Origin: Conexibacter sp.
GTDB lineage: Bacteria > Actinomycetota > Thermoleophilia > Solirubrobacterales > Solirubrobacteraceae
DNA: 17,376 nt
Assembly (NCBI GenBank): GCA_025964215.1
Contig: JAOPZG010000506.1
Coordinates: forward strand, 1-17,376
Reading direction: 5' to 3'
Shown here: in pieces, positions 3,417 through 17,376 of the stretch
Position numbering within the stretch: position 1 is the stretch's first letter
How the letters are laid out: each line of letters begins with the position of its first letter
Made by a program: the position numbers and the translations under genes
The notes under the pieces: generated by a model
Database searches by the model: none
Told to the model about the DNA's origin: nothing
The model's input: only the letters and a program-made list of their open reading frames with translations

Positions 3417-3965
3417 TCAGTAGACGCCGAGCTGCTGGACGCGCGCGGGGAGCAGATCCCAGTTGGTGTCCTTCCACGCTCCGCTGTCGTCGATCGCGTA
3501 CGCACCGATCTCGATCAGGTCGATCCAGATCGCCACGAGCTCACCGATCGACGGCAGCGCGTAGCGGTCGCTCTCGCCATGGCCGCCGACGTAGATGGGC
3601 ACGGGGGCGTCGCGGGCGCCGCTGCAGTCGAAGAAGATCCACGGCTGCTCGGAGACCGGCATCAGTCGCATGTCGACTCCCTGGGCGTCCAACATCGCCC
3701 CTCGCACCGCCCCGAAGACCTCGAGCGTGCGCTGGAGCGTGGTCGCGACCCGGTTCGGCGTGATCTCCTCGCGCCCGCCTCCGTCGTGCCATCGCCACCA
3801 CACCCTGGCCTCATCAGGCAGCTCGAAGCTATGCGGACGCGTCAGCGCGTCGATCTGCCCGTCGTCGAGCCCCGGGCGCCACGCGCGGATGATCGGGGCG
3901 CCTGCCGAGTGCAGAGTCTGATCGAAGCGCTTGAGGAGCTCGGGAGTGAGGAGTTGCGGCGTCAC
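3417..3965 (-). CDS. SUKH / SMI1-KNR4 family protein (possible immunity protein)
   Basis: 182 residues from GTG 3965 (MTPQLLTPELLKRF). Features of the SMI1/KNR4 (SUKH) fold are seen: a short N-terminal helical part, RPHSFELPDEARVWWRWHDG (tandem Trp and HDG near residue 55-65), EQPWIFFDCSGAR, then LPSIGELVAIWIDLIEIGAY with an acidic C-terminal tail. Many SUKH proteins are immunity proteins for polymorphic toxins or contact-dependent inhibition effectors; others have regulatory roles. That role is only inferred here because no toxin gene is visible nearby. A second, damaged copy follows upstream at 4049-4441 with roughly 80% nucleotide identity, so the gene was tandemly duplicated. SUKH genes are often found in such arrays. 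Confidence 0.75.
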   Translation of the reverse strand: MTPQLLTPELLKRFDQTLHSAGAPIIRAWRPGLDDGQIDALTRPHSFELPDEARVWWRWHDGGGREEITPNRVATTLQRTLEVFGAVRGAMLDAQGVDMRLMPVSEQPWIFFDCSGARDAPVPIYVGGHGESDRYALPSIGELVAIWIDLIEIGAYAIDDSGAWKDTNWDLLPARVQQLGVY

Positions 3966-4048: not shown

Positions 4049-4441
4049 TCAGAAGACGCCGAGCTGTTGGACGCGCTCGGGCACCAAATCCCAGTCGGTG
4101 TCCTTCCAGGCGCCGCTGTCGTCGACAGCATGAGCCCCGATCTCGATCAACTCGATCCAGATCACTACAAGCTCACCGATCGACGGCAGCGCGTAGCGGT
4201 CATCCTCACCGTGCCCTCCGACCCAGATCGGAACGGGAGCGTCCCGGGCGCCGCTGCAGTCGAAGAAGATCCATGGCTGCTCCGAGACCGGCGAGAGCCG
4301 CATGTCGGCTCCCTGGGTCTGGAGCACCGCACCTCGCAGCGCCGCGAAGTGCTCGAGCGTGCGCTTGAGCGGGATCGCGACCCGACCCGGCGTGATGTCC
4401 GCATTTCCACCGCCGTCGTGCCATCGCCACCACACCTGGCC
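4049..4441 (-). pseudogene. 5'-truncated second SUKH / SMI1-KNR4 copy
   Basis: From VWWRWHDGGG to the C-terminal VQQLGVF it matches the neighbouring intact SUKH protein almost residue for residue (EQPWIFFDCSGAR and LPSIGELVVIWIELIEIGAH are kept). The first 55 or so residues of the family are missing: homology stops at about 4441, where the sequence becomes the response-regulator remnant on the opposite strand. A frame does continue upstream to an ATG-like start at 4567, but its first ~40 residues would be antisense of the regulator, so a functional product is unlikely. Spacing to the intact copy is 83 bases. Confidence 0.7.
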
Positions 4442-4714
4442 GCGCGCGCCGGTCGGGTCGTCACGCGCCTGGCGATCCTCGACGAGGTCTGGGACGGCGA
4501 GGCCGACCTGCGCTCCAACGCCATCGACGTTCACGTCGCCAAGCTGCGCGCCAAGGTCGACCGGCACTTCGACGCCCCGGCCGACATCCAGTGGCTCGTC
4601 GCGGCATGGGACCGGGGATGGCTGGAGGTTGTCAACCCCGGTCTGCGCCTCGAGGCCGTCGAGGATCGCTTCGCCGGCGATGCGACCGACCGCTTCGCAT
4701 TTACGACGCGATAG
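4442..4714 (+). pseudogene. 3' remnant of an OmpR/PhoB-type response regulator (winged-helix part)
   Basis: The plus-strand frame reads AGRVVTRLAILDEVWDGEAD followed by LRSNAIDVHVAKLRAKVD. This is the C-terminal winged-helix DNA-binding domain of OmpR-type regulators, including the recognition helix. The receiver domain and the first half of the effector domain are absent. After ADIQ the expected T-x-R-G-x-G-Y-R-hairpin is replaced by LVAAWDRGWLEVV and a tail to a stop at 4712-4714, which suggests a small frameshift near 4590. It is joined head to head with the truncated SUKH copy at about 4441/4442, so one rearrangement appears to have cut the 5' ends of both. Confidence 0.65.
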
Positions 4715-5383: not shown

Positions 5384-5414
5384 CGTGATCGCCGACCGGA
5401 CGATCGCGATCACG
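5384..5414 (-). terminator. Hairpin at the end of the catabolic operon (probable terminator)
   Basis: CGTGATCGC (minus strand, 5414-5406) and GCGATCACG (5392-5384) pair perfectly over nine bases with a 13-base loop. The upstream arm overlaps the stop codon of the last gene. There is no U-tract, so it would be an L-shaped, U-less terminator of the kind often proposed in actinobacteria, or an mRNA-stabilising end hairpin. Confidence 0.5.
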
Positions 5415-5991
5415 CAGGCCCGCCAAACGCATCGGACGCCTGCGGCACGCGTGCGCGCTCGCCCGCGCTCTGCGCCAGTGCCCGGAGCGTGCCCGCGAGC
5501 TCCTGCTCGAGGGTCGCGTCGGTGAGGCGGCCGGCCGCGTCGAACTGCTCGTGCGCGGTGGGAACCGCCAGCTCGAGGTCCAGCACGCGAGCGCCGATCG
5601 CGCCGAGCACCTTGCGGGTCTCGGCCTGCGCCCAGACGGCACCGAACATGCCTGTCGAGGCACCGACCACGGCGACGGGCTTGTTGCGCAACACGCTCTC
5701 GGCGAGCGGCCGGGAGAGCCAGTCCAGCGCGATCTTCAGGACGCCGGGGATCGAGCTGTTGTACTCGGGCGTAGCGATCAGGAGCGCGTCGGCGGCCGCC
5801 ACGGCGTCGCCCAGTTCCTGCACGGCGATCGCCGGATGTCCGAGATGGTCCTCGCTGAACGGCGGGATCCCGTCCAGGGCGGGATAGAGCTCCAGCTCGA
5901 GGGCGGGCGGCAACAGGCTCGCCGCCGCCCGCAGCAGCGCAGTGTTGTGCGAATCCCGGCGCAGCGATCCTGAGATGGCCAGGATCCGCAT
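5410..5991 (-). CDS. NADPH-dependent FMN reductase family protein
   Basis: 193 residues from ATG 5991. Flavodoxin-like fold: the FMN-phosphate loop ISGSLRRDSHN lies at residues 6-16, the ATPEYNSSIPGVLKIALDWL segment (P75-E-Y-N) contacts the flavin ring, and VVGASTGMFGA follows at 108-118. This is the SsuE/ArsH/azoreductase-like family, which passes electrons from NAD(P)H to FMN or to quinones. It is the last gene of the operon, starting three bases after the YceI stop. Its likely job is to reduce flavin or re-reduce quinone by-products from the hydroxylated aromatic. The class A monooxygenase in the operon does not itself need a separate reductase, so a quinone role fits better. That role is inference. 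Confidence 0.88.
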   Translation of the reverse strand: MRILAISGSLRRDSHNTALLRAAASLLPPALELELYPALDGIPPFSEDHLGHPAIAVQELGDAVAAADALLIATPEYNSSIPGVLKIALDWLSRPLAESVLRNKPVAVVGASTGMFGAVWAQAETRKVLGAIGARVLDLELAVPTAHEQFDAAGRLTDATLEQELAGTLRALAQSAGERARVPQASDAFGGPA

Positions 5992-5994
5992 CGG

Positions 5995-6519
5995 TCAGAG
6001 GAGGTCGAACTCGAGCTCGACCGACAGCGTGACCTCGTCGGAGAGCGCCTTGCCGCCCTTGGGCAGGTCGGCGTTCCAGGCCATGCCGAACTCGGTGCGG
6101 TCGATGACGGTCTCCAGCGCGAAGCCCAGGCGCGTGTGGGTCATGAACTCGGTGGGGCCGCTCACGGTCCCGGTGGCGCGCACCGGCTTGGTAACGCCGC
6201 GCAGCGTCAGCTGCCCCTCGAGCGTCAGCGAGTCGCCGTCGATCGAGAGCACGTCGGATCGGAAGCTGATCGCGGGATGCCGCTCGCCGACGAAGAAGTC
6301 GGGCGACTGGAGGTGGCTGCCCAGCGTCGGCTCTTTGACGTTGATCGACGCCACCTTCACCGCGCCAGTGAGGACGCCGTCGCGCAGCGCGCCGTCGACC
6401 TCCTCGAAGGTCCCGCGGAACTTGGCCACGGTGTAGTCGATGGAGAAGCTCGCCGACGAGTGCGTCGGGTTGAGCTTCCACTGGCCGATCAGACGGTCGT
6501 CGAAGGTCGTGTCGGACAC
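5995..6519 (-). CDS. YceI family lipid/isoprenoid-binding protein
   Basis: 174 residues from GTG 6519. An excellent AGGAG (6532-6528) sits eight bases before this start. An earlier ATG at 6546 forms an ATGA overlap with the preceding stop but has no ribosome binding site, and would add nine Pro/Gly-rich residues. YceI hallmarks are seen: WKLNPTHSSASFSIDYTVAK at the N-terminus, KEPTLGSHLQSPDFF, HPAISFRSDVLS, GQLTLRGVTKPV, and FGMAWNADL near the end. YceI proteins are beta-barrel (lipocalin-like) binders of long polyprenyl or other hydrophobic molecules. No signal peptide is present, so this one should be cytoplasmic. In this operon it might hold a hydrophobic substrate or intermediate. Confidence 0.88.
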   Translation of the reverse strand: MSDTTFDDRLIGQWKLNPTHSSASFSIDYTVAKFRGTFEEVDGALRDGVLTGAVKVASINVKEPTLGSHLQSPDFFVGERHPAISFRSDVLSIDGDSLTLEGQLTLRGVTKPVRATGTVSGPTEFMTHTRLGFALETVIDRTEFGMAWNADLPKGGKALSDEVTLSVELEFDLL

Positions 6520-6542
6520 GGGTGATGCTCCTGGGTTCGGGG

Positions 6543-7379
6543 TCATGGGGTCGGTGAGGATGCGGTGGCGAGACCGAGCGCGAGCGCCGCTTGCGCAGGC
6601 GAGTTGAGCGGTCGTTCCAGCGCGCCGGCGATGGCGGCCAGGCGCGCGACGAGCTGGGCGCTCGAGCGCGCGGGCTCGCCGCGGCGGATGAGCAGCGTGT
6701 CCTCCAGGCCGGTCCGCGCGTTGGCGCCGAGCGCGAGACCCATCGCGGTGATCGGCAGGTTGGAGCGTCCGATCGCCACGACCTGCCAGACGGCGGTCGG
6801 CGGCATGCGGCGCACGAGCGACAGCAGGTTCTCCGGCGTCGCCGCCATGCCGCCGCGGACGCCGAGGACGATCGAGAACTGCAGCGGCTCGACGAGCAGG
6901 CCGTCGGCCAGCAGCTCCAGCGCGACGTCGAGGTGGCCGGTGTCGTAGATCTCGAGCTCGGGCTTGACGCCGAGCTCGGCCATGCGCGCGGCCAGGCGGC
7001 GCACCTCGTCGGCCGGGTTGAGGAACTCCCCCGCGCCGAAGGTCATCGAGCAGACGTTCAGCGTCGCCATCGCCGGTCGAACCTCGACGAGCTGGGCACG
7101 CTCGCTGAGCGGCACCCCGAGGCCCACCCCGGTCGACATCTGGACGAGGGCATCGCAACGCTCACCGATCGCGTCGATGACCCGGTGCGCGACGTCGAGG
7201 TCGGCGGTCGGCCGGCCCTCGTCGTCGCGGAGGTGGACGTGCACGATCGCCGCTCCTGCGGCGGTCGACTCGGCGGCGGCGACGGCGATCTCGTCGGGCG
7301 TCACCGGCAGCGCGGGATGGTCGGCCTTGGTGGCGATCGGGCCGGTCAGGGCCGCGGTCAGCGTGACCGGACCGCTCAT
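6543..7379 (-). CDS. Beta-keto acid cleavage enzyme (BKACE / DUF849, Kce-like)
   Basis: 278 residues from ATG 7379, with GAGGG six bases upstream. BKACE enzymes condense a beta-keto acid with acetyl-CoA and cleave it to acetoacetate plus a new CoA ester, using zinc. Zinc ligands are visible: H47 and H49 in IVHVHLRDDEGRPT, and E226 in ARTGLEDTLL. Other family segments are MSTGVGLGVP, FSIVLGVRGGMAATPENLL and the C-terminal GEPARSSAQLV. Its start overlaps the cyclase stop by four bases (ATGA). Specificity cannot be read from sequence; the family covers many different beta-keto acids. Its presence implies that the pathway makes a beta-keto acid, probably after ring opening. Confidence 0.9.
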   Translation of the reverse strand: MSGPVTLTAALTGPIATKADHPALPVTPDEIAVAAAESTAAGAAIVHVHLRDDEGRPTADLDVAHRVIDAIGERCDALVQMSTGVGLGVPLSERAQLVEVRPAMATLNVCSMTFGAGEFLNPADEVRRLAARMAELGVKPELEIYDTGHLDVALELLADGLLVEPLQFSIVLGVRGGMAATPENLLSLVRRMPPTAVWQVVAIGRSNLPITAMGLALGANARTGLEDTLLIRRGEPARSSAQLVARLAAIAGALERPLNSPAQAALALGLATASSPTP

Positions 7380-8173
7380 GCGTCGCCCTCGGGAACCATC
7401 GCGACGACGCGGCTCCAGGCCGCGCTCGCGTCGGCGAGGCGGATCGGCAGGGCGCTCACCAAGAAGCCGGAAGGCGGCAGCTGGGAGAGGTTGACGAGCT
7501 TCTCGATCTGGCAGTACTCCTTGCGGCGACCGAGGAAGTGCGACTCCCACAGCTGGTCGCGGTCGCCGGCGCGGGCCTCGTCGGCCATGACGCCTAGCGG
7601 CCGGTCTAGTCCCCACGCGTCGATGCCGATGAGCCGCACCCCGTGATCGACGAGCCACTCGGTGGCCGAGAGGCGCAGGCCGGAATGGCGGCGGTCGTAG
7701 CCCGCGGTCTCGAACTGCAGCGAGACGTCGGTGCGGATCAACACGATGTCCAACGGCTGCAGGTCATGGCCGATCAGCTCCAGCGCGTGCTCCACCTCGC
7801 CGGCCTCGATGCCCTCCCCCGCCTGCTTGTGCGTGAAGTCCAGGACGACCCCGGGCCCGAGGCACCATCGCAGCGGCACGTCGTCGATCGTCCGGGCCGG
7901 ACGGCCGGCGGTGGTGCTGGCGTAGTGGTAGGGCGCGTCGACGTGGGTGCCGGAGTGCGTCGACAGCGTCACGCGCTCCACCGCCCACGCCTCCCCGTCA
8001 ACCCAGAGCTCCGGCTCAATGCCGTAGGCACCGGTGAGCGTCGCCGCCGTGCGATGGTCGATGTACTCGATCTCGTGCGGGTTGGGCTCGAACGCGCGGG
8101 TCGCGTTGCCCAGTCGCTGGGAGAGGTCGACCAGCCGCAGCGGGCCGGCGGGCAGCGTGACGGTGTCAGTCAT
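7376..8173 (-). CDS. Cyclase family metal-dependent hydrolase (KynB / kynurenine formamidase-like)
   Basis: 265 residues from ATG 8173, overlapping the dioxygenase stop by eight bases. The family metal-binding motif HxGTHxDxPxH is complete at residues 73-83 (HSGTHVDAPYH). The protein opens with LVDLSQRLGNATRAFEP as in kynurenine formamidases and isatin hydrolases. GIDAWGLDRP near residue 190 is the second conserved segment. These Mn/Zn enzymes hydrolyse amide, lactam or lactone bonds. It is longer than bacterial KynB (about 210 residues), and no tryptophan-pathway genes are near, so kynurenine formamidase itself is unlikely. Opening of a lactone or an N-acyl intermediate is a reasonable guess. 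Confidence 0.87.
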   Translation of the reverse strand: MTDTVTLPAGPLRLVDLSQRLGNATRAFEPNPHEIEYIDHRTAATLTGAYGIEPELWVDGEAWAVERVTLSTHSGTHVDAPYHYASTTAGRPARTIDDVPLRWCLGPGVVLDFTHKQAGEGIEAGEVEHALELIGHDLQPLDIVLIRTDVSLQFETAGYDRRHSGLRLSATEWLVDHGVRLIGIDAWGLDRPLGVMADEARAGDRDQLWESHFLGRRKEYCQIEKLVNLSQLPPSGFLVSALPIRLADASAAWSRVVAMVPEGDA

Positions 8174-9110
8174 GTGAGCCCACGGGCGGCGACGCCTCGT
8201 ACATGGAGTCCGGGATGCCGCCCGACCACATGATCGCCGGGTGCTCGGAGACCCACCACTCGACGGGCTTCCAGTCGGGAGCGAACACGAGGTAGCCACC
8301 GCTGCAGATCTCCACGCGGTTGCCACCCGGCTCGCGGAGGTACAAGAACATGATCTCGGTGCCGCGATGCCGGCTCGGCCCCCACTCGATCTCGACGTCG
8401 TAGTCGGCGGCGATGTCGGCGAGCCGCAGAACCTCTTCCCGCGTCTCCTCCCAGAAGCACACGTGATTGAGCCGGCCGCGCTCGCCGGCGGGATCGCGAC
8501 CGAAGGCCACGTCGTGCGCGAGGTTCGAGACGCTGAGGAACGAGAACAGCTCCTCCTTGGTCTCGTCGAAGCGCTGGATCTCGTTGGTGCGGAACCCGAG
8601 CCGCTCGAACAGCTCGCGGCTGGGCGTCGGATCGCTGCAGTTGACCGTGACGTGGTCCAGCCGGCGGCATGAGGCGCCGCGCGTCACGTACTTCTGCGGC
8701 CTGGTCTTGTGGATCGTCTGCAGCTCCGGCGGCGCCTCCCAGATGTCGACGTCCCAGAACGCCTCGACGACGTGGCCGTCCGGGGTCGAGAAGCGGTAGG
8801 CGCGGCCGTGCCCGACGTCGCCGTCGATGTAGCCGAGCCCGAGCCCGAGCGGCTCGACGATCGCCGCGACCTGGTCGACCTCGTCGGCGCCGTCGGTCCG
8901 GAACGCCATGTGGCCGAGCCCCGACCGCGGCGACGCCGTCAGCTTAAGGCTGTGATGGTGGAACTCGCCCCAGCAGCGCATGTAGACGGAGTCGCCCTCG
9001 CGCGCCGACTCCTCCAGGCCGAGGATGTTGGAGAAGAAGTCCACGCTCCCCTCGAGGTCGGTGGTGAGGAGCTCGACGTGGCCGAGCTGTGAGAACAGGT
9101 GATGCGCCAT
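8166..9110 (-). CDS. Two-domain extradiol ring-cleavage dioxygenase (catechol 2,3-dioxygenase family)
   Basis: 314 residues from ATG 9110, with GGAAGG upstream. Two vicinal-oxygen-chelate domains: residues about 8-125 (starting LGHVELLTTDLE) and about 150-275. Fe(II) ligands are complete in domain 2: H153 (RRLDHVTVN), H216 (RLNHVCFW) and E267 (NRVEI). The active-site partners H199 (NLAHDVAF), H248 and Y257 are also present, at nearly the same numbers as in XylE-type enzymes. It should cut a catechol next to one hydroxyl (meta cleavage) using O2. It follows the amidohydrolase by 16 bases. Both ACMSD-type proteins of this cluster may act just before or after this step. Confidence 0.92.
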   Translation of the reverse strand: MAHHLFSQLGHVELLTTDLEGSVDFFSNILGLEESAREGDSVYMRCWGEFHHHSLKLTASPRSGLGHMAFRTDGADEVDQVAAIVEPLGLGLGYIDGDVGHGRAYRFSTPDGHVVEAFWDVDIWEAPPELQTIHKTRPQKYVTRGASCRRLDHVTVNCSDPTPSRELFERLGFRTNEIQRFDETKEELFSFLSVSNLAHDVAFGRDPAGERGRLNHVCFWEETREEVLRLADIAADYDVEIEWGPSRHRGTEIMFLYLREPGGNRVEICSGGYLVFAPDWKPVEWWVSEHPAIMWSGGIPDSMYEASPPVGSHD

Positions 9111-9126
9111 GGTCCCTTCCGGTGTG

Positions 9127-10161
9127 TCAGGTCTGGTCGTGCGTGGTGACGTGCTGCGATGCGAACAGGCGGGTCGCCGCGTTCTGTCCGAGGATGCGGG
9201 CCTTCGCCTCGTCGCTGATCCCGGGCAGGCCGCGGACGACGTCCCAGCCCGGGAAGTCGTCCCAGCCGGGATGGTTCGTCCCGAGGACGACCTGCTGGTC
9301 GCCCATCATCTGGATCAGGAAGACGAGCGCCCGCGGGTCGTGGACGACGGTGTCGAAGAAGAAGGACGGCAGGTACTCCGCGATCGGCCGCGTGACGCCG
9401 CCGATGATCTCGGCGTGGCGCTCGAGGCGGCCGAGGTGGTACGGGATCATCCCGCCGCCGTGGGGGACGCTGAAGCGCAGCGCGGGAAAGCGGTCCAGCA
9501 CGCCGCCGAGGATGAGGCCAGCCACGGCGACGGTCTCGCCGAACAGGTAGCCCCACGCCCAGTCGGTCTGGTGCTCGGCCAGCCACGGCGCGCCGGCGGC
9601 GACGAGGTCCATCGTCTGGCCCAGTGGCACCGGGTGCAGCTGGATCGGCACGTCGAGGGCCTGGGCGGCGGCCAGCAGCGGCTCGTACTCGGGCGCGGCC
9701 AGCGTGCGGCCGCCACCGGTGACGAAGTCGATCGTGCAGGACCGGAACCCGAGCTGCGTCACGGCGTGCTCGAGCTCGGCCGCGGCCAGCACGGGATCCT
9801 GGACCGGGAGGTGCGCCGAGCCCCAGAAGCGCTCGGGGAAGGCGGCGATCAGCGCGGCGGTCTGCTCGTTGAACGCCCGGCTGAAGCGGGCGTTGACGGC
9901 GGCCGGCAGGTGCAGGTTGAACACCAGCGGGCTGGGTTGCAGCACCTGGATGTCGACCCCTGCGGCGTCCATCTGCGCGACGCGGTCGGCGAGGCCGTCG
10001 CCCCAGAACGCGTTCGGCGATCCGGGGATGACGTACTCGAGGTCGCCGCTGCGGAACAAGTAGCGGCCGTCGGCGCGCTCGGTCATCGTGATGCCGAACG
10101 GCGCGACGACGTCCAGCACCGCTCGCGGCTGGAAGTGCGTGTGGGTGTCGATCACGACCAT
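9127..10161 (-). CDS. ACMSD-type amidohydrolase (decarboxylase or hydrolase), metal Asp replaced by Asn
   Basis: 344 residues from ATG 10161, with GAGG four bases upstream; a GTG at 10155 would give a GTGA overlap. Amidohydrolase_2 family: metal-binding H7-x-H9 (IDTHTHF), H176 (IQLHPVPLG) and H234 (SVPHGGG). The family's near-C-terminal catalytic Asp (normally in G-[ST]-D-[YWH]-P) is N296 here (VVLGTNHPGWDD). Relatives include ACMSD, gamma-resorcylate decarboxylase and 5-carboxyvanillate decarboxylase LigW, which remove a carboxyl group from aromatic or ring-opened acids. With the Asp gone the enzyme may have altered chemistry. It overlaps the monooxygenase stop by ten bases. Confidence 0.88.
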   Translation of the reverse strand: MVVIDTHTHFQPRAVLDVVAPFGITMTERADGRYLFRSGDLEYVIPGSPNAFWGDGLADRVAQMDAAGVDIQVLQPSPLVFNLHLPAAVNARFSRAFNEQTAALIAAFPERFWGSAHLPVQDPVLAAAELEHAVTQLGFRSCTIDFVTGGGRTLAAPEYEPLLAAAQALDVPIQLHPVPLGQTMDLVAAGAPWLAEHQTDWAWGYLFGETVAVAGLILGGVLDRFPALRFSVPHGGGMIPYHLGRLERHAEIIGGVTRPIAEYLPSFFFDTVVHDPRALVFLIQMMGDQQVVLGTNHPGWDDFPGWDVVRGLPGISDEAKARILGQNAATRLFASQHVTTHDQT

Positions 10162-11660
10162 GACGCCTCATGCTCCACGCGCGCGCATGCAGGTACGCGG
10201 GCCAGCACCGCGGCGAGCTCCTCAGCCGTGGCGGCGACGCCGAGCACGTAGCGGTCGGGGCGGATCACGACCGCGCGGGCGTCGTGGTCGGCCAGCCACC
10301 GGCGCACGACGGGTCCGGGATCGGTCACGCAGACCGCGCCCAGCCGCGCTGCCTGCTCGGCGACTTCGGGCCCCGCGGCGGCCAGGAGCCCAGCCGGATC
10401 GACGATGGCGAAGCGCAGGCCGACGACGTCGTCGAGCAGCGGCCCCGCGGCGGTCTCGTCCTGCGGCAGCAGCGTACCCGCCGCCGTCTCGGAGGCGGGG
10501 TGCAGCGCCGGGCCGAGCCGCGGGACCTGCGGCTCGTAGGTGAGATCGCGAAGCATGTCATCGCGCTCGGTCGCGGCGCCGGGCTCGAGGATGCTCCACC
10601 ACTGCGCGAGCATCGCAGAGCCCGCGACGTAGTGGCGGGCATGCGGGGAGCGCTCGGCCTGGTAGCTGTCGAGCAGCTCCTCGTCCATCGTCCCGGCGAG
10701 GACCGCGGCGAGCTTCCAGGCCAGGTTGCCCGCGTCGCGCATCCCGCTGCACAGGCCCTGGCCCATCGTCGGCGGCATCTGATGCGCCGCGTCACCGGCG
10801 ATCAGCAGCGGACCCCGGCGCCACGTGTCGGCCAGCAGCGCGTGGAACTGGAACACCGTCGACAGGACGATCTCGGCATCGTCGGGACCGATCCACGGAG
10901 CCAGCAGGTCCCAGACCTGCGGCTCGCCGACCATCGACGCCCCGTCCTCGCCGGGCAGCAGCCGGAAGTAGAACCGCCGGTAGCCGCGCGGGTTGCGCAG
11001 GTAGGCCATCGGGCGGGCCGGATCCAAGATGTAGAAGTTGTGCTCGGGGAGCTCGGCGGCGCGCCGCAGGTCGACGTCGATAAACAGCCAGTCGTAGTCG
11101 TCGCCGAGGACCTCGTGGCGCGCGCCGATCGCGCGGCGCACGAGCGAGCGCCCGCCCTCGCAGCCGACCACGTAGCGGCTGCGCACCTGTGTCCGCTCGC
11201 CGGTGGCGCAGTCGCGCACCGTCAGCAGCGCGTGGTCGCCGTGCTCGGCGACGGCTTCGACCTCGTGGCCGCGCCGCACACCGACCGTCGGCTGCGCCTC
11301 GACGACGCCGCGCATGGCCTGCTCGACGTCGGGCTGGTGGATCATGTAGGTGCTGCGCCAGTGGTGCGGTCGCGGACCCTCGAACCCCAGCGTCATGAGC
11401 AGCTCGCCCGCGGCCGACCAGTAGCGGAACTCCGGCGCCGGGCGGAAGCGCTCCTCCAGGTGCTCGGCGATCCCGAAGGCCTGGAAGATCCGCATGATCT
11501 CGCCGTCGACCATCCGGGCGCGGGGCAGCGGCGTGACGTCGGGCTGGCGCTCGAAGGCCAGGACGTCGGTCCCGAAGGACCCCAGGTAGGCGGCCAGCGC
11601 GGCACCCGTCGGGCCCAGGCCGACGATCGCCACCTCGGTGTCGAGCTCCGGGCCGGTCAC
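10152..11660 (-). CDS. Class A FAD-dependent aromatic monooxygenase (MhpA / 3-HPP hydroxylase-like)
   Basis: 502 residues from GTG 11660, which overlaps the permease stop by four bases (GTGA). Seen: the Rossmann GxGxxG at residues 14-19 (VAIVGLGPTGAALAAYL), the ribose-binding E37 (FERQ), the second FAD/NAD(P)H motif VVGCEGGRSLVRRAIG (the usual CDG is CEG here), and the third motif IAGDAAHQMPPTMGQGLCSG. A thioredoxin-like C-terminal domain with low conservation follows, as in the 500-plus-residue members of the family (phenol, resorcinol and 3-(3-hydroxyphenyl)propionate hydroxylases). It should add a hydroxyl ortho or para to an existing one using NAD(P)H and O2, giving the catechol or hydroquinone for the downstream dioxygenase. 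The exact substrate is unknown. Confidence 0.9.
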   Translation of the reverse strand: MTGPELDTEVAIVGLGPTGAALAAYLGSFGTDVLAFERQPDVTPLPRARMVDGEIMRIFQAFGIAEHLEERFRPAPEFRYWSAAGELLMTLGFEGPRPHHWRSTYMIHQPDVEQAMRGVVEAQPTVGVRRGHEVEAVAEHGDHALLTVRDCATGERTQVRSRYVVGCEGGRSLVRRAIGARHEVLGDDYDWLFIDVDLRRAAELPEHNFYILDPARPMAYLRNPRGYRRFYFRLLPGEDGASMVGEPQVWDLLAPWIGPDDAEIVLSTVFQFHALLADTWRRGPLLIAGDAAHQMPPTMGQGLCSGMRDAGNLAWKLAAVLAGTMDEELLDSYQAERSPHARHYVAGSAMLAQWWSILEPGAATERDDMLRDLTYEPQVPRLGPALHPASETAAGTLLPQDETAAGPLLDDVVGLRFAIVDPAGLLAAAGPEVAEQAARLGAVCVTDPGPVVRRWLADHDARAVVIRPDRYVLGVAATAEELAAVLARVPACARVEHEASWS

Positions 11661-12703
11661 GACGAGCCCGGTGCCTGGCGACGCCGCTGCGCGATCACCG
11701 CGACGCTGACCGCCCCGATCAGCGCGACGCCGTTGAACAGGTCGGTGATCCAGATGCTGCCGCCCGCGAGCTGCAGACCCTTGACGCCGGTGGCCAGCAG
11801 GTAGATCGCCAGCAGCGTGCCCCAGACGTTGAAGCGGCCGAGCTTGATCTGCGTCGTCCCCAAGAAGCACGCGGCGAACGCCGGCAGCAGGTACGGCGGG
11901 CCGAGGCCCGAGCTGGTCTGGCCGATCCGGGCCGCGAGCAGCGTGCCCGCCAGCGCGGCGATCGTCCCCGTGGCCACGAACGACCAGAACACGTTGCGGC
12001 CGGTGCGGACGCCGGCCAGCCGCGCCGCGTCCGCGTTGGCGCCGGTCGCGTAGACCCGCCGACCGACAGGCGTGTGCTCGAGCACGTACCAGACGATCGC
12101 ACCGAGGAGCACCGCGTACACGGTGATCACCGGCACGCCGAGCGGCTCGTGGCTCAGCGTGGCCTGAAACGACGCGGGCAGCGGCCCGATGAACTGGTCG
12201 TTGGAGATCTGCTCGGTGAGCGCGAGCAGGATCGAGCTCATGCCCAGCGTCGCGATGAAGCTGTTGACGCCGACGACCGCGACGATCAGGCCGTTGGCCG
12301 CGCCGATGCCCGCGCCGAGGGCGAGGGTCAGCAGCACGGCCGGCAGCGGCGCGACGTGCGAGTTGACCATCAACGAGCTGCTGACGACCGCGCTGAGGCC
12401 GAGGTTCTGCGCGCAGGACAGGTCGTACTGCCCGGCGCTCAGGGTGAACAGGGCGCCCAGCGCCAGCATCACGGTGATCGCCTGGTCGCCCGCGATCGAC
12501 TTGGCCGTCGACGTCGCCAGGAACGTGTCGGGGATCCACAACGCGAAGATGATGATGAACAACGCCCAGAGGGCGAAGCCGCTGTAGCGCAGCCCGACCG
12601 CGCGCGCGACCAGGCCGGCACGCCGGCTCAGGGCGACGGCCCCGGGCTGCGCGGGCGGCTCGGGTCCCGTGGTCGGGGCCGGCGACGACGTGAGCTCGGT
12701 CAT
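11657..12703 (-). CDS. ABC transporter permease, sugar type (RbsC-like)
   Basis: 348 residues from ATG 12703, with GAGGGG upstream overlapping the end of the ATPase gene. A hydrophilic Pro/Ala-rich N-terminus of about 35 residues precedes 8-10 TM segments (SGFALWALFIIIFALW first). The BPD_transp_2 signatures are present: LSAGQYDLS, GIGAANGLIVAVVGVNSFIATLGM, VGRRVYATGANADAARLAGV (the EAA-like loop that meets the ATPase) and LPAFAACFLGTTQ. It forms the membrane channel of the importer with the two neighbouring genes. In this family cargo is mostly sugars, but members also carry autoinducer-2 and other small molecules, so placement in an aromatic operon is informative. Confidence 0.92.
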   Translation of the reverse strand: MTELTSSPAPTTGPEPPAQPGAVALSRRAGLVARAVGLRYSGFALWALFIIIFALWIPDTFLATSTAKSIAGDQAITVMLALGALFTLSAGQYDLSCAQNLGLSAVVSSSLMVNSHVAPLPAVLLTLALGAGIGAANGLIVAVVGVNSFIATLGMSSILLALTEQISNDQFIGPLPASFQATLSHEPLGVPVITVYAVLLGAIVWYVLEHTPVGRRVYATGANADAARLAGVRTGRNVFWSFVATGTIAALAGTLLAARIGQTSSGLGPPYLLPAFAACFLGTTQIKLGRFNVWGTLLAIYLLATGVKGLQLAGGSIWITDLFNGVALIGAVSVAVIAQRRRQAPGSS

Positions 12704-12711
12704 CTCGCCCC

Positions 12712-14247
12712 TCACGCTCCGACCGGAGTCGGCACGCCGTCGCCGGCGCGCATGCTCATCGTCAGCAGGCGCTCGGTCGTCAGCTCGTCTCCGGCCAGCT
12801 CGCCGGCGACGCGACCGTCGCGCAAGACCAGCACGCGATCGCAGACCGCGCAGAGCTCCTCCGCATCGCTCGAGGACAGGACGATCCCCGCGCCGGAGGC
12901 GGCGAGCGTGCTCAGCGCCTCGTAGACGGCGCGCTTGGAGGCGACGTCGATCCCGGCGGTCGGCTCGTCGAGCAGGAAGACCCGCGCGCCGCGACGCAGC
13001 CAGCGCGCCAGGACCACCTTCTGCTGGTTGCCGCCGCTGAGGTCGGCGAACAGGTGCTCGGGGCTGGCCGGCTGCACGTCGAGGCGCTCCAGCCACGGCA
13101 CCACGTCGGCGCGCTCGGCGCGTGGGGCGAGCCAGCGCGCGGGACCCCGCGAGGGGATCGCCGGCAGCGTGACGTTCTCGCGCAGCGTCCAGGTCGCCGT
13201 GGCGCCCAGGCGCCGGCGATCGGCCGACGCGTAGGCCACGCCGGCCTCGATGGCCGCGCGCGGGTCGCCCGGGCGCACGACGTCGGTCCCCACGGCCACC
13301 GTGCCGGACGACCGCTCACGGCCGCCGAAGATCGTGGCCAGCAGCTGCTCGTGGCCGGAGCCGACGAGCCCGGCGACCCCGACGATCTCGCCGCCGCAGA
13401 CCCGCAGCGTCACCGCGTCGAGGCCCGGGGCGCGGATGTCGAGCGCCTCGAGCACGACGTCGCCGCCGTGTGCCGGCGGGTCCGGGTAGAACGCGCTCAA
13501 CGAGCGCCCGACGATCAGCTCGACGAGCCCGTCGTGCGTGAGCGATGCCACGTCGCGGGTCGCCACGCGGCGGCCGTCGCGCAGGACGCTCACGCGGTCG
13601 GCGATCTCGAAGACCTCCGACAGCCGGTGCGTCACGTACAGGATCGTCCCGCCCTGGCGGCGGACCTCGCGGACCAGCTCGAACAGGTGGCTGACCTCGG
13701 CGGCGGGCAGCGCGGCCGTCGACTCGTCCAGCACCAGCACGCTGCCGCGTCCCACCCCGTGCTGGAGCGCGCGCACGACCGCGACGATCGTGCGGCGCGC
13801 CGGGCTGAGATCCCGCAGCGGGGTCGAGACGTCGAGGTCGACGCCGTACTCCGCCAGCCGCTCGCGCGCGGCCCGGCGCTCGCGGCGATCCGACAGCCAC
13901 CAGCGTCCTTGGTAGCGCGCGCCCAGCGCCAGGTTGTCGACCGCGTCGAGCTCGTCGATGACGCCGAGGTCCTGGTGGACGAAGGTGATCCCCGCGGCGT
14001 GCGCCGCCTCCGCCGAGCCGAGGCTGAGGGGCTTGCCGTGCAGCGTGGCCCGTGCGCCGGGCTCGGGCTGGTGGTAGCCGGCGAGGATCTTGATGAGCGT
14101 GGACTTCCCGGAGCCGTTGTGGCCCAGGAGCGCGTGGACCTCCCCGCTGCGCAGCGTCAGATCGACGCCGCGCAGCGCGGGCTGGCCCTGGAACACCTTC
14201 GACACGTCCTCCAGCACGAGCGCGTTGTTGTCGTCGACGACGCTCAT
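12712..14247 (-). CDS. ABC transporter ATPase with two nucleotide-binding halves, sugar type (RbsA-like)
   Basis: 511 residues from ATG 14247, four bases after the binding-protein stop. The first half carries Walker A GHNGSGKST (42-50), a Q-loop in ITFVHQDLGVI, a degenerate signature (LSPARRTIVAVVRAL), Walker B VLVLDESTA and a switch His (LYVTHRLSE). The second half lacks a normal Walker A (VAGLVGSGHEQL) but has a good signature (LSGGNQQKVVLARWL) and Walker B VFLLDEPTAGIDVAS. This asymmetry is normal for the RbsA/MglA/XylG group. It powers import with the adjacent permease and the lipoprotein. Confidence 0.93.
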   Translation of the reverse strand: MSVVDDNNALVLEDVSKVFQGQPALRGVDLTLRSGEVHALLGHNGSGKSTLIKILAGYHQPEPGARATLHGKPLSLGSAEAAHAAGITFVHQDLGVIDELDAVDNLALGARYQGRWWLSDRRERRAARERLAEYGVDLDVSTPLRDLSPARRTIVAVVRALQHGVGRGSVLVLDESTAALPAAEVSHLFELVREVRRQGGTILYVTHRLSEVFEIADRVSVLRDGRRVATRDVASLTHDGLVELIVGRSLSAFYPDPPAHGGDVVLEALDIRAPGLDAVTLRVCGGEIVGVAGLVGSGHEQLLATIFGGRERSSGTVAVGTDVVRPGDPRAAIEAGVAYASADRRRLGATATWTLRENVTLPAIPSRGPARWLAPRAERADVVPWLERLDVQPASPEHLFADLSGGNQQKVVLARWLRRGARVFLLDEPTAGIDVASKRAVYEALSTLAASGAGIVLSSSDAEELCAVCDRVLVLRDGRVAGELAGDELTTERLLTMSMRAGDGVPTPVGA

Positions 14248-14251
14248 CCGG

Positions 14252-15397
14252 CTAGTCGACGTGCCAGGCGCTGAGGAAGGCGGCGGGCGAACCCGGCGCC
14301 GACGGCGCGACGGTGGTCTGCGTGACGTTGTCCTTGGTGAGGATCTGCGCCCAGCCGGCCGGGTCGCGCAGGTCGCCGAGCTCGACGCCCATCGCGAGCC
14401 GCGCCATCTGATCCACCGCGCGGTAGCCGCCGGAGGTGTTCTCCTCGGCCACGGCCGCCCAGGTGCTCCCGTTCTTGATGTCGGCCAGGTTGGCGGCCTG
14501 CGGGGCGCGGCTGATGATCTTGACCTTGTCGCTCAGCCCGGCGACCTTGAGCGCCTGCGGAACGCCGACGGTGAAGTCGGCGACCGAGAAGGCCAGGTAC
14601 TTGACCTTGGGGTGCGACTGCACGTAGCTGACGACCTGACCGGGGATCGACTTGCCGATGTTGGCCAGCGCGACCTTCATCACGTCGGCGTGGCCGCCCG
14701 CGTCGCCGACGGTCTTGGCGAACGCCGCCTCGGCGGGCTTGAAGACCGTGACCGAGGGATCGGTGATCCACACGGTGTCGGGTCCCCGGCCTGCGTCGGC
14801 GACGACCGTCGAGCCCATCAGCCGCCCGTCCTGCGCGAACTGCGGCACGCCGGCCACCGCGGCCTTCAGCGGACCCTCGCTCGTCGGCCGGTCACCGGAG
14901 GGACCCAGCTCGACCAGCGGGATGTTGCGCTTGGCGACGACGGCGAGCTGCTTGGCGATGAAGGAGTCGGGCACGACCGCGCTGGCGGCGATCAGGTCCG
15001 GCGGGTCCTCCAGCAACTGGTTCCACGCCGTCTGATAGCCCTCCGGCGTGTACGGCGCCTGGATCGTCTTGACCTTCCAGCCGAGGATCTTCGCCGCCTC
15101 GGCCACGGGGTCGGACTCCGCGCGGCAGACCGGCAGCGGGCACGTCGTGATCGTCAGGCGCAGGCCGGCCGGCGGCTTCTTGGGCAGCGTGGGCACGCTG
15201 ATCGGCGGCTGCGTGGCATGGAACTTGGCGAAGTCGGCCTTGGCCGCCGCCACCGCGGGCGACGCGGCGTCCGCTCCGGAGCTCGCCGTCGACGTCGTCG
15301 CCGAGGACTTCGAATCACCGCCCCCGCACGCCGACAGCGCGCCGGCGGCGATCAGGGCCGCGGCTGCGGCCGAGGCACCTCGTGTCAAGAACATCAT
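14252..15397 (-). CDS. ABC transporter substrate-binding lipoprotein (Peripla_BP_4 type)
   Basis: 381 residues from ATG 15397. AGGAG at 15411-15407 is nine bases from this ATG but directly abuts an in-frame ATG at 15406, so 15397 is preferred. Lipoprotein signal: TRG, then a hydrophobic Ala-rich stretch, then lipobox LSAC with the lipidated Cys at residue 24. A Ser/Thr/Ala linker follows, then a two-lobe periplasmic-binding fold (LRLTITTCPLPVCRAE, AAKILGWKVKTIQAPYTPEG, PDLIAASAV, VKYLAFSVADF). It presents the ligand to the permease. Two Cys residues five apart (TTCPLPVC) at the first strand are unusual and could form a disulfide. The ribosome binding site overlaps the stop codon of the FAH-family gene, so the two are coupled. 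Confidence 0.9.
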   Translation of the reverse strand: MMFLTRGASAAAAALIAAGALSACGGGDSKSSATTSTASSGADAASPAVAAAKADFAKFHATQPPISVPTLPKKPPAGLRLTITTCPLPVCRAESDPVAEAAKILGWKVKTIQAPYTPEGYQTAWNQLLEDPPDLIAASAVVPDSFIAKQLAVVAKRNIPLVELGPSGDRPTSEGPLKAAVAGVPQFAQDGRLMGSTVVADAGRGPDTVWITDPSVTVFKPAEAAFAKTVGDAGGHADVMKVALANIGKSIPGQVVSYVQSHPKVKYLAFSVADFTVGVPQALKVAGLSDKVKIISRAPQAANLADIKNGSTWAAVAEENTSGGYRAVDQMARLAMGVELGDLRDPAGWAQILTKDNVTQTTVAPSAPGSPAAFLSAWHVD

Positions 15398-15406
15398 GTT
15401 GAACAT

Positions 15407-15411
15407 CTCCT
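15407..15411 (-). promoter_or_regulatory. Ribosome binding site that sets the start of the binding-protein gene
   Basis: AGGAG, sharing two bases with the TAG stop of the FAH-family gene (15412-15410). Spacing is nine bases to ATG 15397 and zero to ATG 15406, which selects the inner start and points to translational coupling. Confidence 0.7.
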
Positions 15412-16447
15412 AGCTCGGTGACCCGTCGTTCAGGGCTGGCGCCCCGCGGTGCTGTGTCTGCGTGCCTGCGTCCTGCGCGCCGGCCACGGGCTCGGCGACG
15501 CAGCGGTTGCGCTGCCGGCCGAGCCCCGTGATCTCGCCCTCCATGAGGTCGCCGGGGCTGAGGAAAGTGCCGTGGTGCGCGCCGTTGCCGGCGGGCGAAC
15601 CGGTGAGGACGAGATCGCCCGGACGCAGCTCGGAGACGGTCGAGAGGTACTCGACCAGCCGGGCCACGTCGAAGAGCATGTCCTCGGTGCTCTCGTCCTG
15701 CATGACGATCCCGTTGACCTGCAACGTGATCTGGAGGTCCATCGGATCCTCGATGTGGATCGCGGGGACGAACAGCGGACCAACCGGAAGGAAGGTCGGA
15801 ACGTTCTTGGCCGCCAACCAATCGAGGCCGCCCGGGACGTCGGCCCGGCGCAGGCGATCGCGGAGCGTCACGTCGTTGGCGATCGTGTAGCCGGCCACGT
15901 ACGCGAGCGCGTCCTCGCGGCGCACACGACGTGCACGACGCCCGATGACGACCGCAAGCTCGAGCTCCCAGTCGGGCTGGACCCCGTCGTAGGGCAGCAC
16001 CACATCGTCCTCGGCGCCGATGACGGCATGGGCGTTGCCCTGGAAGACGAACGGCGCGCCCGTCCGGGATCGCTCAGCGAGCGCGATGCGCGCCTTGCCG
16101 CGCTCCTCGTCGCGCATGCCGTCCGAGCCGTCCTCCCGGCGCTCGGCGGCGGCCATGAGGTCGAGGACGTGGGTCCGGTAGTTGGCGCCCGCCTGGAAGA
16201 TCTGCGCGGTCGGGACGACGGGCGGCAGCGGATGCAGGTCGCCGAGGCTCAGGCCGGCGTCGCCGGAGGCCAGCCGGTTCGCCGCCGCCTGCAGCTCGGG
16301 CAGCGCATCGTCCCAGCGAGCGAGGAGATCGCCCAGCGACACGCCGCCGGCGAGCGGCCACGCGACGTCGCCGACCACGACGGCCACGACGTCGGGCGTT
16401 GTCGGGGTTCGGAACCTCCCCAGGGCAAAGCGACTCTCCTCACGCAT
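15410..16447 (-). CDS. Fumarylacetoacetate hydrolase (FAH) family protein
   Basis: 345 residues from ATG 16447; a frame continues further upstream but would run through the promoter. FAH-fold metal ligands are seen: E161 and E163 (PDWELELAVVIG) and D192 (GYTIANDVTLRD). K214 (LAAKNVPTFLPVGP) matches the family's catalytic lysine. FQAGANYRTHVLDL at 84-97 is the start of the core, and GDLVLTGSPAGNG at 277-289 is the conserved C-terminal loop. Members include fumarylacetoacetase, 2-hydroxypentadienoate hydratase, 4-oxalocrotonate decarboxylase and acylpyruvases. In this operon it most likely handles a ring-opened dienoate or acylpyruvate. The last 25 residues are low-complexity. It is the first gene of the operon. 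Confidence 0.9.
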   Translation of the reverse strand: MREESRFALGRFRTPTTPDVVAVVVGDVAWPLAGGVSLGDLLARWDDALPELQAAANRLASGDAGLSLGDLHPLPPVVPTAQIFQAGANYRTHVLDLMAAAERREDGSDGMRDEERGKARIALAERSRTGAPFVFQGNAHAVIGAEDDVVLPYDGVQPDWELELAVVIGRRARRVRREDALAYVAGYTIANDVTLRDRLRRADVPGGLDWLAAKNVPTFLPVGPLFVPAIHIEDPMDLQITLQVNGIVMQDESTEDMLFDVARLVEYLSTVSELRPGDLVLTGSPAGNGAHHGTFLSPGDLMEGEITGLGRQRNRCVAEPVAGAQDAGTQTQHRGAPALNDGSPS

Positions 16448-16454
16448 CGGCGGC

Positions 16455-16483
16455 AACCTAGATCGATGTTGGCAATTTGTCAA
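16455..16483 (-). promoter_or_regulatory. Promoter of the eleven-gene catabolic operon
   Basis: On the minus strand a perfect -35 TTGACA (16483-16478), a 17-base spacer, and TAGGTT (16460-16455), which fits the actinobacterial TANNNT -10. Start of transcription is expected near 16448, immediately before the ATG at 16447, so the mRNA would be leaderless or nearly so. There is no good ribosome binding site, which agrees. Confidence 0.65.
16469..16483. promoter_or_regulatory. Near-perfect 15-bp palindrome, candidate operator
   Basis: TTGGCAATTTGTCAA: six of seven arm positions are complementary around a central T, the exception being a G opposite T. It covers the -35 box of the operon promoter and lies just upstream of the -10 of the divergent gene, so one bound regulator could control both. 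Size and half-site type would suit a GntR- or IclR-like repressor; the regulator is not in the window. Confidence 0.5.
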
Positions 16484-16488
16484 GTGGA

Positions 16489-16494
16489 TACACT
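16489..16494 (+). promoter_or_regulatory. -10 element of the divergent amidohydrolase gene
   Basis: TACACT fits TANNNT and ends seven bases before C16501, so transcription would start at or next to the ATG at 16502. No clear -35 at proper spacing (a TTGGCA is 14 bases upstream) and no ribosome binding site are seen. Confidence 0.5.
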
Positions 16495-16501
16495 CGGCAA
16501 C

Positions 16502-17376
16502 ATGCGCATCGACGCCCACGCCCACGTGATCCCGGACGCCTACCGCCACGAGCTCGACCGGCGCCAGCTGCTGGACTTCCCGCTGCCGCCGGCGTCTGCC
16601 GAGGGCCTGGCGGCGATGCTCGAGCGCCACGCGATCGACGGCGCGATCGTCTCGCCGTCACCCCCGGGCGTCGCCTTCGGCGACCAGCCGCTCGCCGACC
16701 ACCTCGCCCGCCTGCTCAACGAGAAGCTGTCTGCGGTCCGACGCGACCTGCCGCAGTGCGTCGGCGCGCTGGCGATCCTGCCGCTGCCGGACGTCGAGCG
16801 CGCGCTGACCGAGTTGGCCTATGCCTTGGACGTCCTGAAGCTCGACGGCGTGATGCTGCTGTCCAACGTCCTGGGCACCTACCTCGGCGATCCGGCGCTG
16901 GACCCGCTGATGGCCGAGCTGGACCGGCGTGCGACCCACGTGTTCATCCATCCGCAGCAGCCGCCCTACGCGCCGCCGCTCGGCGAGCATCCGGTGTGGC
17001 TCTACGAGTACCCGTTCGACACCACGCGGGCGGTGGTCAACCTGATCTACTCGGGCACGCTGGAGCGCTACCCGCAGATCACCTTCCAGCTCTCGCACCT
17101 GGGCGGCGCCGCGCCCTACCTGGGCCACCGCATCGCGTCGCTCGCCACGCGCGTTCCCGCCGCGGGCGCCGCGGCCCCGCTCGGCGCGCTCGCCTACCTG
17201 GAGCGGCTGCAGTACGACACCGGCCTGGCCGACAACGCCATCCAGCTGGCCGCGATGCGCCTGGTGGCTCCGGCGCGGCAGATCCTCTTCGGCACCGACT
17301 GGCCCTACGCGCCGCTGCCCGCGGCGGGCGACCCGCAACCCGCGCTCGCGGCGTTCGGCGACGACCGTGCCGCCGT
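16502..17376 (+). CDS. ACMSD-type amidohydrolase (partial, C-terminus beyond window)
   Basis: 291 residues from ATG 16502 to the window edge; the family is usually about 300-340 residues, so little is missing. All expected metal and catalytic residues are seen: H6-x-H8 (RIDAHAHVIPD), H150 (VFIHPQQPP), H199 (QLSHLGGAAPYLG) and D266 (ILFGTDWPYAPL). The start is well fixed because HxH lies right behind it in this family. It belongs with gamma-resorcylate, 5-carboxyvanillate and ACMSD-type decarboxylases, although hydrolases also occur. It is divergent from the catabolic operon and shares its control region, so it likely works in the same pathway. Unlike the paralogue at 9127-10161 it keeps the catalytic Asp. 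Confidence 0.9.
   Translation, partial: MRIDAHAHVIPDAYRHELDRRQLLDFPLPPASAEGLAAMLERHAIDGAIVSPSPPGVAFGDQPLADHLARLLNEKLSAVRRDLPQCVGALAILPLPDVERALTELAYALDVLKLDGVMLLSNVLGTYLGDPALDPLMAELDRRATHVFIHPQQPPYAPPLGEHPVWLYEYPFDTTRAVVNLIYSGTLERYPQITFQLSHLGGAAPYLGHRIASLATRVPAAGAAAPLGALAYLERLQYDTGLADNAIQLAAMRLVAPARQILFGTDWPYAPLPAAGDPQPALAAFGDDRAA

Follow-up and report, generated by a model that had tools for sequence, protein, structure and literature searches.

A characterised operon that unites a hydroxylase, an extradiol dioxygenase and an FAH-family enzyme is hcdABC of Pseudomonas mandelii 7HK4, which acts in the degradation of 7-hydroxycoumarin (PMC6222606). In the part of that report drawn on here, HcdA yields 3-(2,3,5-trihydroxyphenyl)propionate, HcdB opens the ring to 2,4-dihydroxy-6-oxonona-2,4-dienedioate, and the ring-fission compound vanishes with HcdC, the FAH-family member, whose products were not identified by the authors. 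The Mhq pathway, as described in an excerpt, leads from 2-methylhydroquinone by way of a trihydroxytoluene to 2,4,6-trioxoheptanoate (PMC8571283). In the breakdown of phloroglucinol by Clostridium scatologenes, a cyclase-family enzyme carries out a retro-Claisen C-C ring opening, and the final cleavage given in the excerpted paper is the work of a beta-keto acid cleavage enzyme, or BKACE (PMC10470551). Here we analyse a cluster of aromatic catabolism genes on a contig of Conexibacter sp. (JAOPZG010000506.1), a real and coherent catabolic operon with a recurring core that joins the hcd/Mhq kind of pathway to the phloroglucinol kind.

The stretch analysed, referred to below as the window, is the whole of this contig (C86, 17376 bases), part of a 3.4 Mb genome (G000) that is assembled in 674 contigs and is 65% complete. 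Eleven genes run on the minus strand from 16447 to 5410 with intergenic gaps of -10 to +23 bases, as calculated from gene-end coordinates, and because of this tight same-strand spacing they are likely to form one operon. ACMSD2 begins 54 bases from the first gene of the operon on the opposite strand and is truncated by the contig end. In order of the operon, and followed by the divergent gene, the features are:

15410..16447, minus strand, FAH-family hydrolase of 345 aa, first operon gene (PF01557, 1.2e-61)
14252..15406, minus strand, putative ABC substrate-binding protein, assigned by a weak family match and by position (PF13407, Peripla_BP_4, 4e-6; 26.9 bits, under the Pfam cut-off of 35.1)
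12712..14247, minus strand, double ATPase of a sugar-type ABC importer (ABC_tran, 3e-36; AraG-like at 414 bits, under the equivalog cut-off of 689)
11657..12703, minus strand, ABC importer permease (PF02653, BPD_transp_2, 5e-31)
10152..11660, minus strand, class A flavin hydroxylase, MhpA-like (FAD_binding_3, 9e-66; NF004829, 471.7 bits against a cut-off of 390)
9127..10161, minus strand, ACMSD1, an ACMSD-type amidohydrolase (PF04909, Amidohydro_2, 6e-35)
8166..9110, minus strand, type I extradiol dioxygenase, catechol 2,3-dioxygenase-like (glyoxalase/dioxygenase, 4e-22; TIGR03211, 287.3 bits against a cut-off of 320.2)
7376..8173, minus strand, cyclase-family hydrolase, of the family of KynB, isatin hydrolase and DPGC (PF04199, 3.5e-35)
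6543..7379, minus strand, BKACE (PF05853, 2.7e-87; 293 bits against a cut-off of 24.8)
5995..6519, minus strand, YceI-like protein (PF04264, 1.5e-32, obtained on 5995-6540; the start at 6519 was picked by codon scores)
5410..5991, minus strand, NADPH-dependent FMN/quinone reductase-type flavoprotein, last gene (PF03358, FMN_red, 4.4e-36)
16502..17376, plus strand, ACMSD2, an amidohydrolase, 6-methylsalicylate-decarboxylase-like, cut by the contig end (PF04909, 1.1e-19)

Family matches in Pfam and NCBIfam were clear for all operon proteins except the ABC binding protein. Together with the spacing they bear out a sequence-only reading of this DNA, which had placed the hydroxylase, dioxygenase, FAH enzyme, a KynB-like hydrolase, BKACE, an ACMSD-type protein and an ABC importer in one operon and had noted a second, divergent ACMSD-type gene. 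The YceI and FMN reductase genes, the last two members, are added to that list. No regulator gene was visible among the genes called on the 17376 bases of the contig, and a promoter and terminator scan of the gap between the operon and ACMSD2 gave no match.

We propose that the operon is dedicated to importing a hydroxylated benzoate-type compound and degrading it aerobically, a reading whose chances we judge to be about even; the reactions, their order, the substrate and the site of hydrolysis are suggested by family membership. The ABC importer would take up the aromatic substrate, for which a 6-substituted salicylate or resorcylate is our best guess. An ACMSD-type decarboxylase would then strip the ring carboxyl beside a hydroxyl to leave a 3-substituted phenol or a 5-substituted resorcinol, and the MhpA-like hydroxylase would add a further hydroxyl to give 2,3,5-trihydroxyphenyl-R. 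Ring opening by the extradiol dioxygenase would produce a 2,4,6-trioxo (2,4-dihydroxy-6-oxo-dienoic) acid, a 1,3-diketone that the FAH enzyme could divide by a retro-Claisen cut into pyruvate and R-CO-CH2-COOH, and BKACE would convert the latter with acetyl-CoA to acetoacetate and R-CO-CoA. The cyclase-family enzyme may reopen a pyrone or lactone or share in the C-C hydrolysis, and the flavoprotein reductase may hold the easily oxidised trihydroxybenzene in its reduced state.

Meta cleavage of a plain catechol yields no 1,3-diketone, whereas a third hydroxyl supplies one. Since the FAH-plus-BKACE exit needs this third ring oxygen, the cleaved ring is more likely to be a trihydroxybenzene than a plain catechol. 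The sequence-only reading had outlined decarboxylation and hydroxylation to a catechol, meta cleavage, hydrolysis and a BKACE step; this outline fits, and related gene sets recur (see below), with the plain catechol as the part that we would replace. The presence of BKACE in the same operon also favours a cut next to the pyruvate unit. If the hcd side chain were cut at that position instead, the products would be pyruvate and 3-oxoadipate, a BKACE-type substrate.

More tentatively, and at somewhat less than even chances, the operon may represent a distinct aerobic route of the Solirubrobacterales, with an hcd-type upper part (opening of a trihydroxybenzene by an oxygenase) and a phloroglucinol-type lower part (retro-Claisen cuts by the FAH enzyme, the cyclase or both, followed by BKACE, to acetoacetate and R-CoA), which would need no aldolase, aldehyde dehydrogenase or CoA ligase. 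A cyclase-BKACE exit joined to an hcdABC- or mhq-like ring opening would account for the lack of an aldolase and an acetaldehyde dehydrogenase. It would constitute another exit from meta cleavage, one in which no aldehyde is released and the acyl-CoA is made by exchange with acetyl-CoA. It would also hint at where the FAH enzyme of the recurring hydroxylase-extradiol-FAH operons cuts, a point left open by the hcd study, and would suggest what a small BKACE clade and the gene sets that recur in Solirubrobacterales may do.

Compared by family and not by sequence, the window operon is like hcdABC in uniting a class A flavin hydroxylase, a type I extradiol dioxygenase and an FAH-family hydrolase, and the 2,3,5-trihydroxyphenyl intermediate of hcdABC matches the one proposed here. 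It is unlike the three-gene hcd operon, which in the excerpted report lacks a decarboxylase, a cyclase, a BKACE and an ABC importer. The Mhq pathway shares a trihydroxybenzene intermediate and a trioxo acid with the proposed scheme but starts from a hydroquinone, and its excerpted description mentions no BKACE (PMC8571283). With the phloroglucinol pathway (PGR-DPGC-TfD-TAL) the operon has a cyclase-family and a BKACE-family enzyme in common; that pathway differs in being anaerobic and reductive, according to the part of the paper used (PMC10470551), and its SDR reductase and 3-hydroxyacyl dehydrogenase-like enzyme were not among the matched genes of the contig. The mhp and catechol meta-cleavage pathways resemble the operon in their MhpA-like hydroxylase and extradiol dioxygenase, whereas Pfam and NCBIfam matches revealed no MhpC-type hydrolase, hydratase, aldolase or acetaldehyde dehydrogenase among the operon genes.

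The same two opening steps, by an FAD hydroxylase and then a glyoxalase-fold dioxygenase acting on the A ring, are found in the ifc and fde pathways of flavonoid breakdown (PMC11069340, in part), and the operon could in principle serve flavonoid or isoflavone A-ring degradation of this type. The later step of those pathways is however cupin-dependent, with IfcD1/D2 in the ifc cluster, and the excerpted paper names no BKACE or ACMSD-type genes; decarboxylase-type genes are likewise without a named role in the ifc cluster as excerpted, FdeC and IfcB being compared by description only. Because no cupin enzyme was matched among the scanned proteins of the incomplete contig, we set this explanation aside as very improbable.

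In open-licence literature covered by titles and the starts of abstracts, the full combination of gene families was not found, whether sought as BKACE with aromatic or flavonoid dioxygenase clusters or as the combined set, and no such gene set appeared in the literature on degradation of isoflavone/naringenin, alkylresorcinol/orcinol, coumarin or methylhydroquinone covered in the same way. The earlier failure to match the set to a named pathway holds for the combination in this literature, but its parts have precedent in the excerpted accounts of hcdABC (PMC6222606), the trihydroxytoluene route (PMC8571283) and the cyclase-plus-BKACE pair (PMC10470551).

At the level of single enzymes, the hydroxylase clears the cut-off of NF004829, a subfamily that takes its name from 3-(3-hydroxyphenyl)propionate hydroxylase, and the dioxygenase comes near the catechol 2,3-dioxygenase model TIGR03211 but stays under its cut-off. 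Residues H153, H216, E267, H199, H248 and Y257 of the dioxygenase are invariant in 19 aligned sequences, its own included; the first three are presumably the iron ligands of the fold, and the claim that the enzyme keeps all its catalytic residues is upheld to this extent. Among proteins of solved structure, the two closest to the FAH protein are HpaG (1gtt) and L-2,4-diketo-3-deoxyrhamnonate hydrolase (8gsr). The latter enzyme cuts a 2,4-dioxo acid to give pyruvate, and FAH hydrolases cleave 1,3-diketones; we propose that the FAH-family hydrolase of the operon is a pyruvate-releasing acylpyruvase. BKACE aligns with Kce almost end to end. At the position of the amine-binding Glu14 of Kce, which is Trp in the phloroglucinol-pathway enzyme according to the excerpted paper (PMC10470551), our reading of an alignment of eight sequences gives Ile in five (among them the window's own BKACE), Val in two and Thr in one. 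The replacement of Glu by Ile argues against an amino substrate.

ACMSD1 and ACMSD2 differ at the C-terminal Asp of ACMSD-type enzymes. Among solved structures ACMSD1 is nearest to ACMSD chains (5e-34), and the meta-cleavage compound hydrolase 5vn5 matches at 8e-16. The HxH motif and two other His motifs are conserved in ACMSD1, but the GTD of ACMSD reads GTN, and Asn replaces the usual C-terminal Asp in both close ACMSD1 sequences aligned (GTN in the window, GSN in MKSH01000070); ACMSD1 may not be an ordinary decarboxylase. ACMSD2 retains in the alignment the Asp that is lost in ACMSD1. No NCBIfam model matched ACMSD2; among its 120 listed relatives, 28 (at 58-72% identity) carry the automatic JGI name 6-methylsalicylate decarboxylase and the rest a general hydrolase name or none.

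The likeness of ACMSD1 to ACMSD chains, and the inclusion of kynurenine formamidase in the cyclase family, are what would be seen in a kynurenine/3-hydroxyanthranilate-like meta pathway for a nitrogen-bearing aromatic, with the cyclase as deformylase, the hydroxylase as a kynurenine 3-monooxygenase and ACMSD1 decarboxylating the ring-cleavage product. The cyclase, which matches isatin hydrolase at 6e-12, is however far under the cut-off of the kynurenine formamidase KynB model TIGR03035 (60.6 vs 223.05), the hydroxylase is MhpA-type, BKACE has Ile in place of the amine-binding Glu, and no kynureninase or amine-processing gene is present among the called genes. As the KynB test fails, and the test of ACMSD1 with its Asn fails as well, we set a kynurenine-type cluster aside and give it little chance of being correct.

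Recurrence of the gene set was surveyed around ACMSD2 in 399 genomes of the class, drawn evenly from a larger group and including the window's own, with matches of E 1e-70 or better taken as close. Close ACMSD2 genes occur in eight of these genomes. All eight loci have an extradiol/VOC gene within 9 kb of ACMSD2 (that of G049 is distant from the window dioxygenase, at 42 bits) and the genome's best FAH match within 11 kb, even though at E 1e-20 each of these genomes contains between 1 and 10 FAH matches. A cyclase gene is present at seven, the eighth contig being merely 6.9 kb long. A close BKACE (at least 59% identity) was found in three of the eight genomes (G000, G014 and G305), in every case with a single copy inside the cluster; two extra close copies in G305 lie outside it, and the BKACEs of the other five genomes are all below 40%. 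The gene families stay together across loci, but individual members vary.

In G014, which belongs to another genus, almost the same operon is found, with FAH (59%), BKACE (66%), ACMSD2 (55%), cyclases, an ABC importer and a dioxygenase, as well as a 3-hydroxyacyl-CoA dehydrogenase-type gene; its ABC binding-protein-like gene matches the window's at 83 bits and is itself over the Pfam cut-off. In G305 (C102) the dioxygenase, FAH, ACMSD2, cyclase, BKACE and an FMN-reductase gene all lie within 18 kb. ACMSD1 is rare: at E 1e-60 it was found in two genomes, the window's own included, out of 232 from the order; in MKSH01000070 it is adjacent to dioxygenase and BKACE genes that run to the contig end. 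Two same-genus clusters (L131 and L132) contain two FAH genes, ACMSD2, a cyclase, an ABC importer and a dioxygenase, with no BKACE match in these stretches.

For the lower pathway, the models for 4-hydroxy-2-oxovalerate aldolase (TIGR03217) and acetylating acetaldehyde dehydrogenase (TIGR03215) stayed under their cut-offs throughout the window's own genome, and among five genomes of the genus searched both were over cut-off in one (G001) and not in G000, G002, G005 or G006. The sequence-only reading had called the usual meta-pathway partners absent; this holds for hydratase, aldolase and acetaldehyde dehydrogenase among the operon genes, and the latter two gave no match over cut-off in the rest of a genome that is 65% complete and in which no genome-wide search for a semialdehyde dehydrogenase was made. 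Absence from this genome alone is weak evidence, given that incompleteness, a contig that reaches no further than the window, and a divergent gene truncated at its edge. A standard catechol meta pathway, with its lower genes elsewhere in the genome and with BKACE, cyclase and FAH as accessory enzymes, would accord with this incompleteness, with the closeness of the dioxygenase to the catechol 2,3-dioxygenase model (287 vs 320), and with G001, where the aldolase and acetaldehyde dehydrogenase pair lies beside other extradiol genes. G006, however, is 96% complete and has an ACMSD2-FAH-cyclase-dioxygenase cluster, yet neither gene is over cut-off there. A related cluster can therefore exist without them, and on this account we set the plain catechol pathway aside; that FAH stands with ACMSD2 and an extradiol/VOC gene at all eight loci, and a cyclase at seven, also speaks against an accessory role and leaves this explanation a long shot.

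Approached from the dioxygenase, recurrence is much less apparent. A search with the single dioxygenase sequence found no relative in the contigs searched. An alignment-based search of 84,980 species genomes returned at least 80 loci, mostly general catechol 2,3-dioxygenase loci.

From the hydroxylase side, we examined plasmid regions around 17 of the 40 relatives listed among 854 matches; these were mostly the top matches followed by spaced ones, a non-random choice in which some share a genus. Both a VOC and an FAH gene were present, by sequence search, in 14 of the 17 regions, while neither was found (0/4 for each) in control stretches of 50 kb set at round coordinates, one on each of four of these plasmids. 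The three misses comprise H45, with VOC and no FAH, H51, with neither, and H69, with an intradiol set. The last is on Pseudomonas plasmid pPHE24 (L156 7950-11585), where the hydroxylase relative accompanies maleylacetate reductase and intradiol dioxygenase genes. A hydroxylase, an intradiol dioxygenase and a maleylacetate reductase make up the set expected for the resorcinol-to-hydroxyquinol route, and this company suggests that the hydroxylase adds a third hydroxyl. One of the control stretches, on a Paraburkholderia plasmid, contains a canonical mhp cluster that includes hydratase, aldolase and acetaldehyde dehydrogenase genes (L176 22865-30661); the set of hydroxylase relative, VOC and FAH is borne by the same plasmid. 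Streptomyces NBC_01727 has a hydroxylase gene that overlaps one for a BKACE with 64% identity to the window's; an FAH gene is found two genes before the latter, and VOC is also close by. The Rhodococcus set is preceded by a YceI gene, and one of the Variovorax sets includes an NAD(P)H-dependent oxidoreductase gene. Four further regions, outside the 17, were reached via the FAH protein, and two of these have no gene table; one region contains VOC, an FAD oxidoreductase, two FAH genes and an amidohydrolase, and in another FAH is found close to an amidohydrolase and an FAD oxidoreductase.

A number of results weigh against the proposed scheme. The hcd authors proposed a different cut, to succinate and 2-hydroxy-4-oxopent-2-enoate, in the part of their report drawn on (PMC6222606). 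ACMSD1 is unexplained by the scheme, and the nearest named family of the dioxygenase is catechol 2,3-dioxygenase. BKACE is missing from five of the eight ACMSD2 loci (one of them on the 6.9-kb contig) and from 16 of the 17 plasmid regions, and it is an add-on present in a minority of related loci. The 80 listed dioxygenase loci include BKACE at 1, FAH at 10, an ACMSD-type gene at 6 and a cyclase at 0 (E 1e-12). The co-occurrence of dioxygenase, BKACE and cyclase families, offered with the earlier reading as a check, is thus rare from the dioxygenase side; around ACMSD2 an extradiol/VOC gene is present at 8/8 loci, a cyclase at 7/8 and BKACE at 3/8. The dioxygenases in the G001 and G006 clusters share 37% identity with the window's, with matches of 46% and 43% elsewhere in those genomes; the cluster cyclases of G001, G014 and G305 reach 39-50%, with better matches (55-59%) elsewhere; and the dioxygenase-like genes of the five plasmid regions compared score just 18-55 bits against the window's. 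Only smaller (367-410 aa), distant flavin hydroxylases are found at four of the seven relative loci (G001, G006, G014 and G076); that of G305 is distant and has 567 residues, that of G049 is closer, and there is none on the short contig of G401, a genome of the same family. Four loci (L111, L117, L118 and L120) hold a dioxygenase and a cyclase without ACMSD2 or a close FAH gene. Finally, close BKACEs occur near cyclases with no extradiol gene in the stretch, in G305 (C146) and on a Mycobacterium riyadhense plasmid; for this reason BKACE is perhaps the partner of the cyclase and may serve its product.

This last point suggests that two modules could share the operon, the extradiol dioxygenase and FAH opening one ring while the cyclase and BKACE, like DPGC and TAL, process a cyclic 1,3-diketone or lactone derived from that same family of substrates. 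The cyclase adjoins BKACE in the window, and the two occur in the same cluster in G014 and in G305 C102. The M. riyadhense plasmid has a cyclase-cupin-BKACE arrangement (L173 10806-12816), with BKACE 68% identical to the window's and no extradiol gene annotated in the stretch, and G305 C146 (L119 10915-19797) has a cyclase, an SDR, a 3-hydroxyacyl-CoA dehydrogenase-type gene and BKACE, which are the families of the phloroglucinol set. No SDR reductase or dehydrogenase of this kind is present among the called genes of the window's contig, however, and BKACE is well under the cut-off of the 3,5-dioxohexanoate model NF053538 (183.2 vs 430). We regard a two-module operon as unlikely and retain the single route through a trihydroxybenzene as the favoured scheme.

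Outside the operon, two tandem open reading frames on the minus strand (3417-3965 and 4049-4567) are identical at 103 of 129 aligned positions and have no Pfam match. A HAMP-domain protein fragment, truncated by the contig end, occupies positions 1-1071 on the minus strand, and a tRNA-Ala (cgc) gene lies at 1215-1288.

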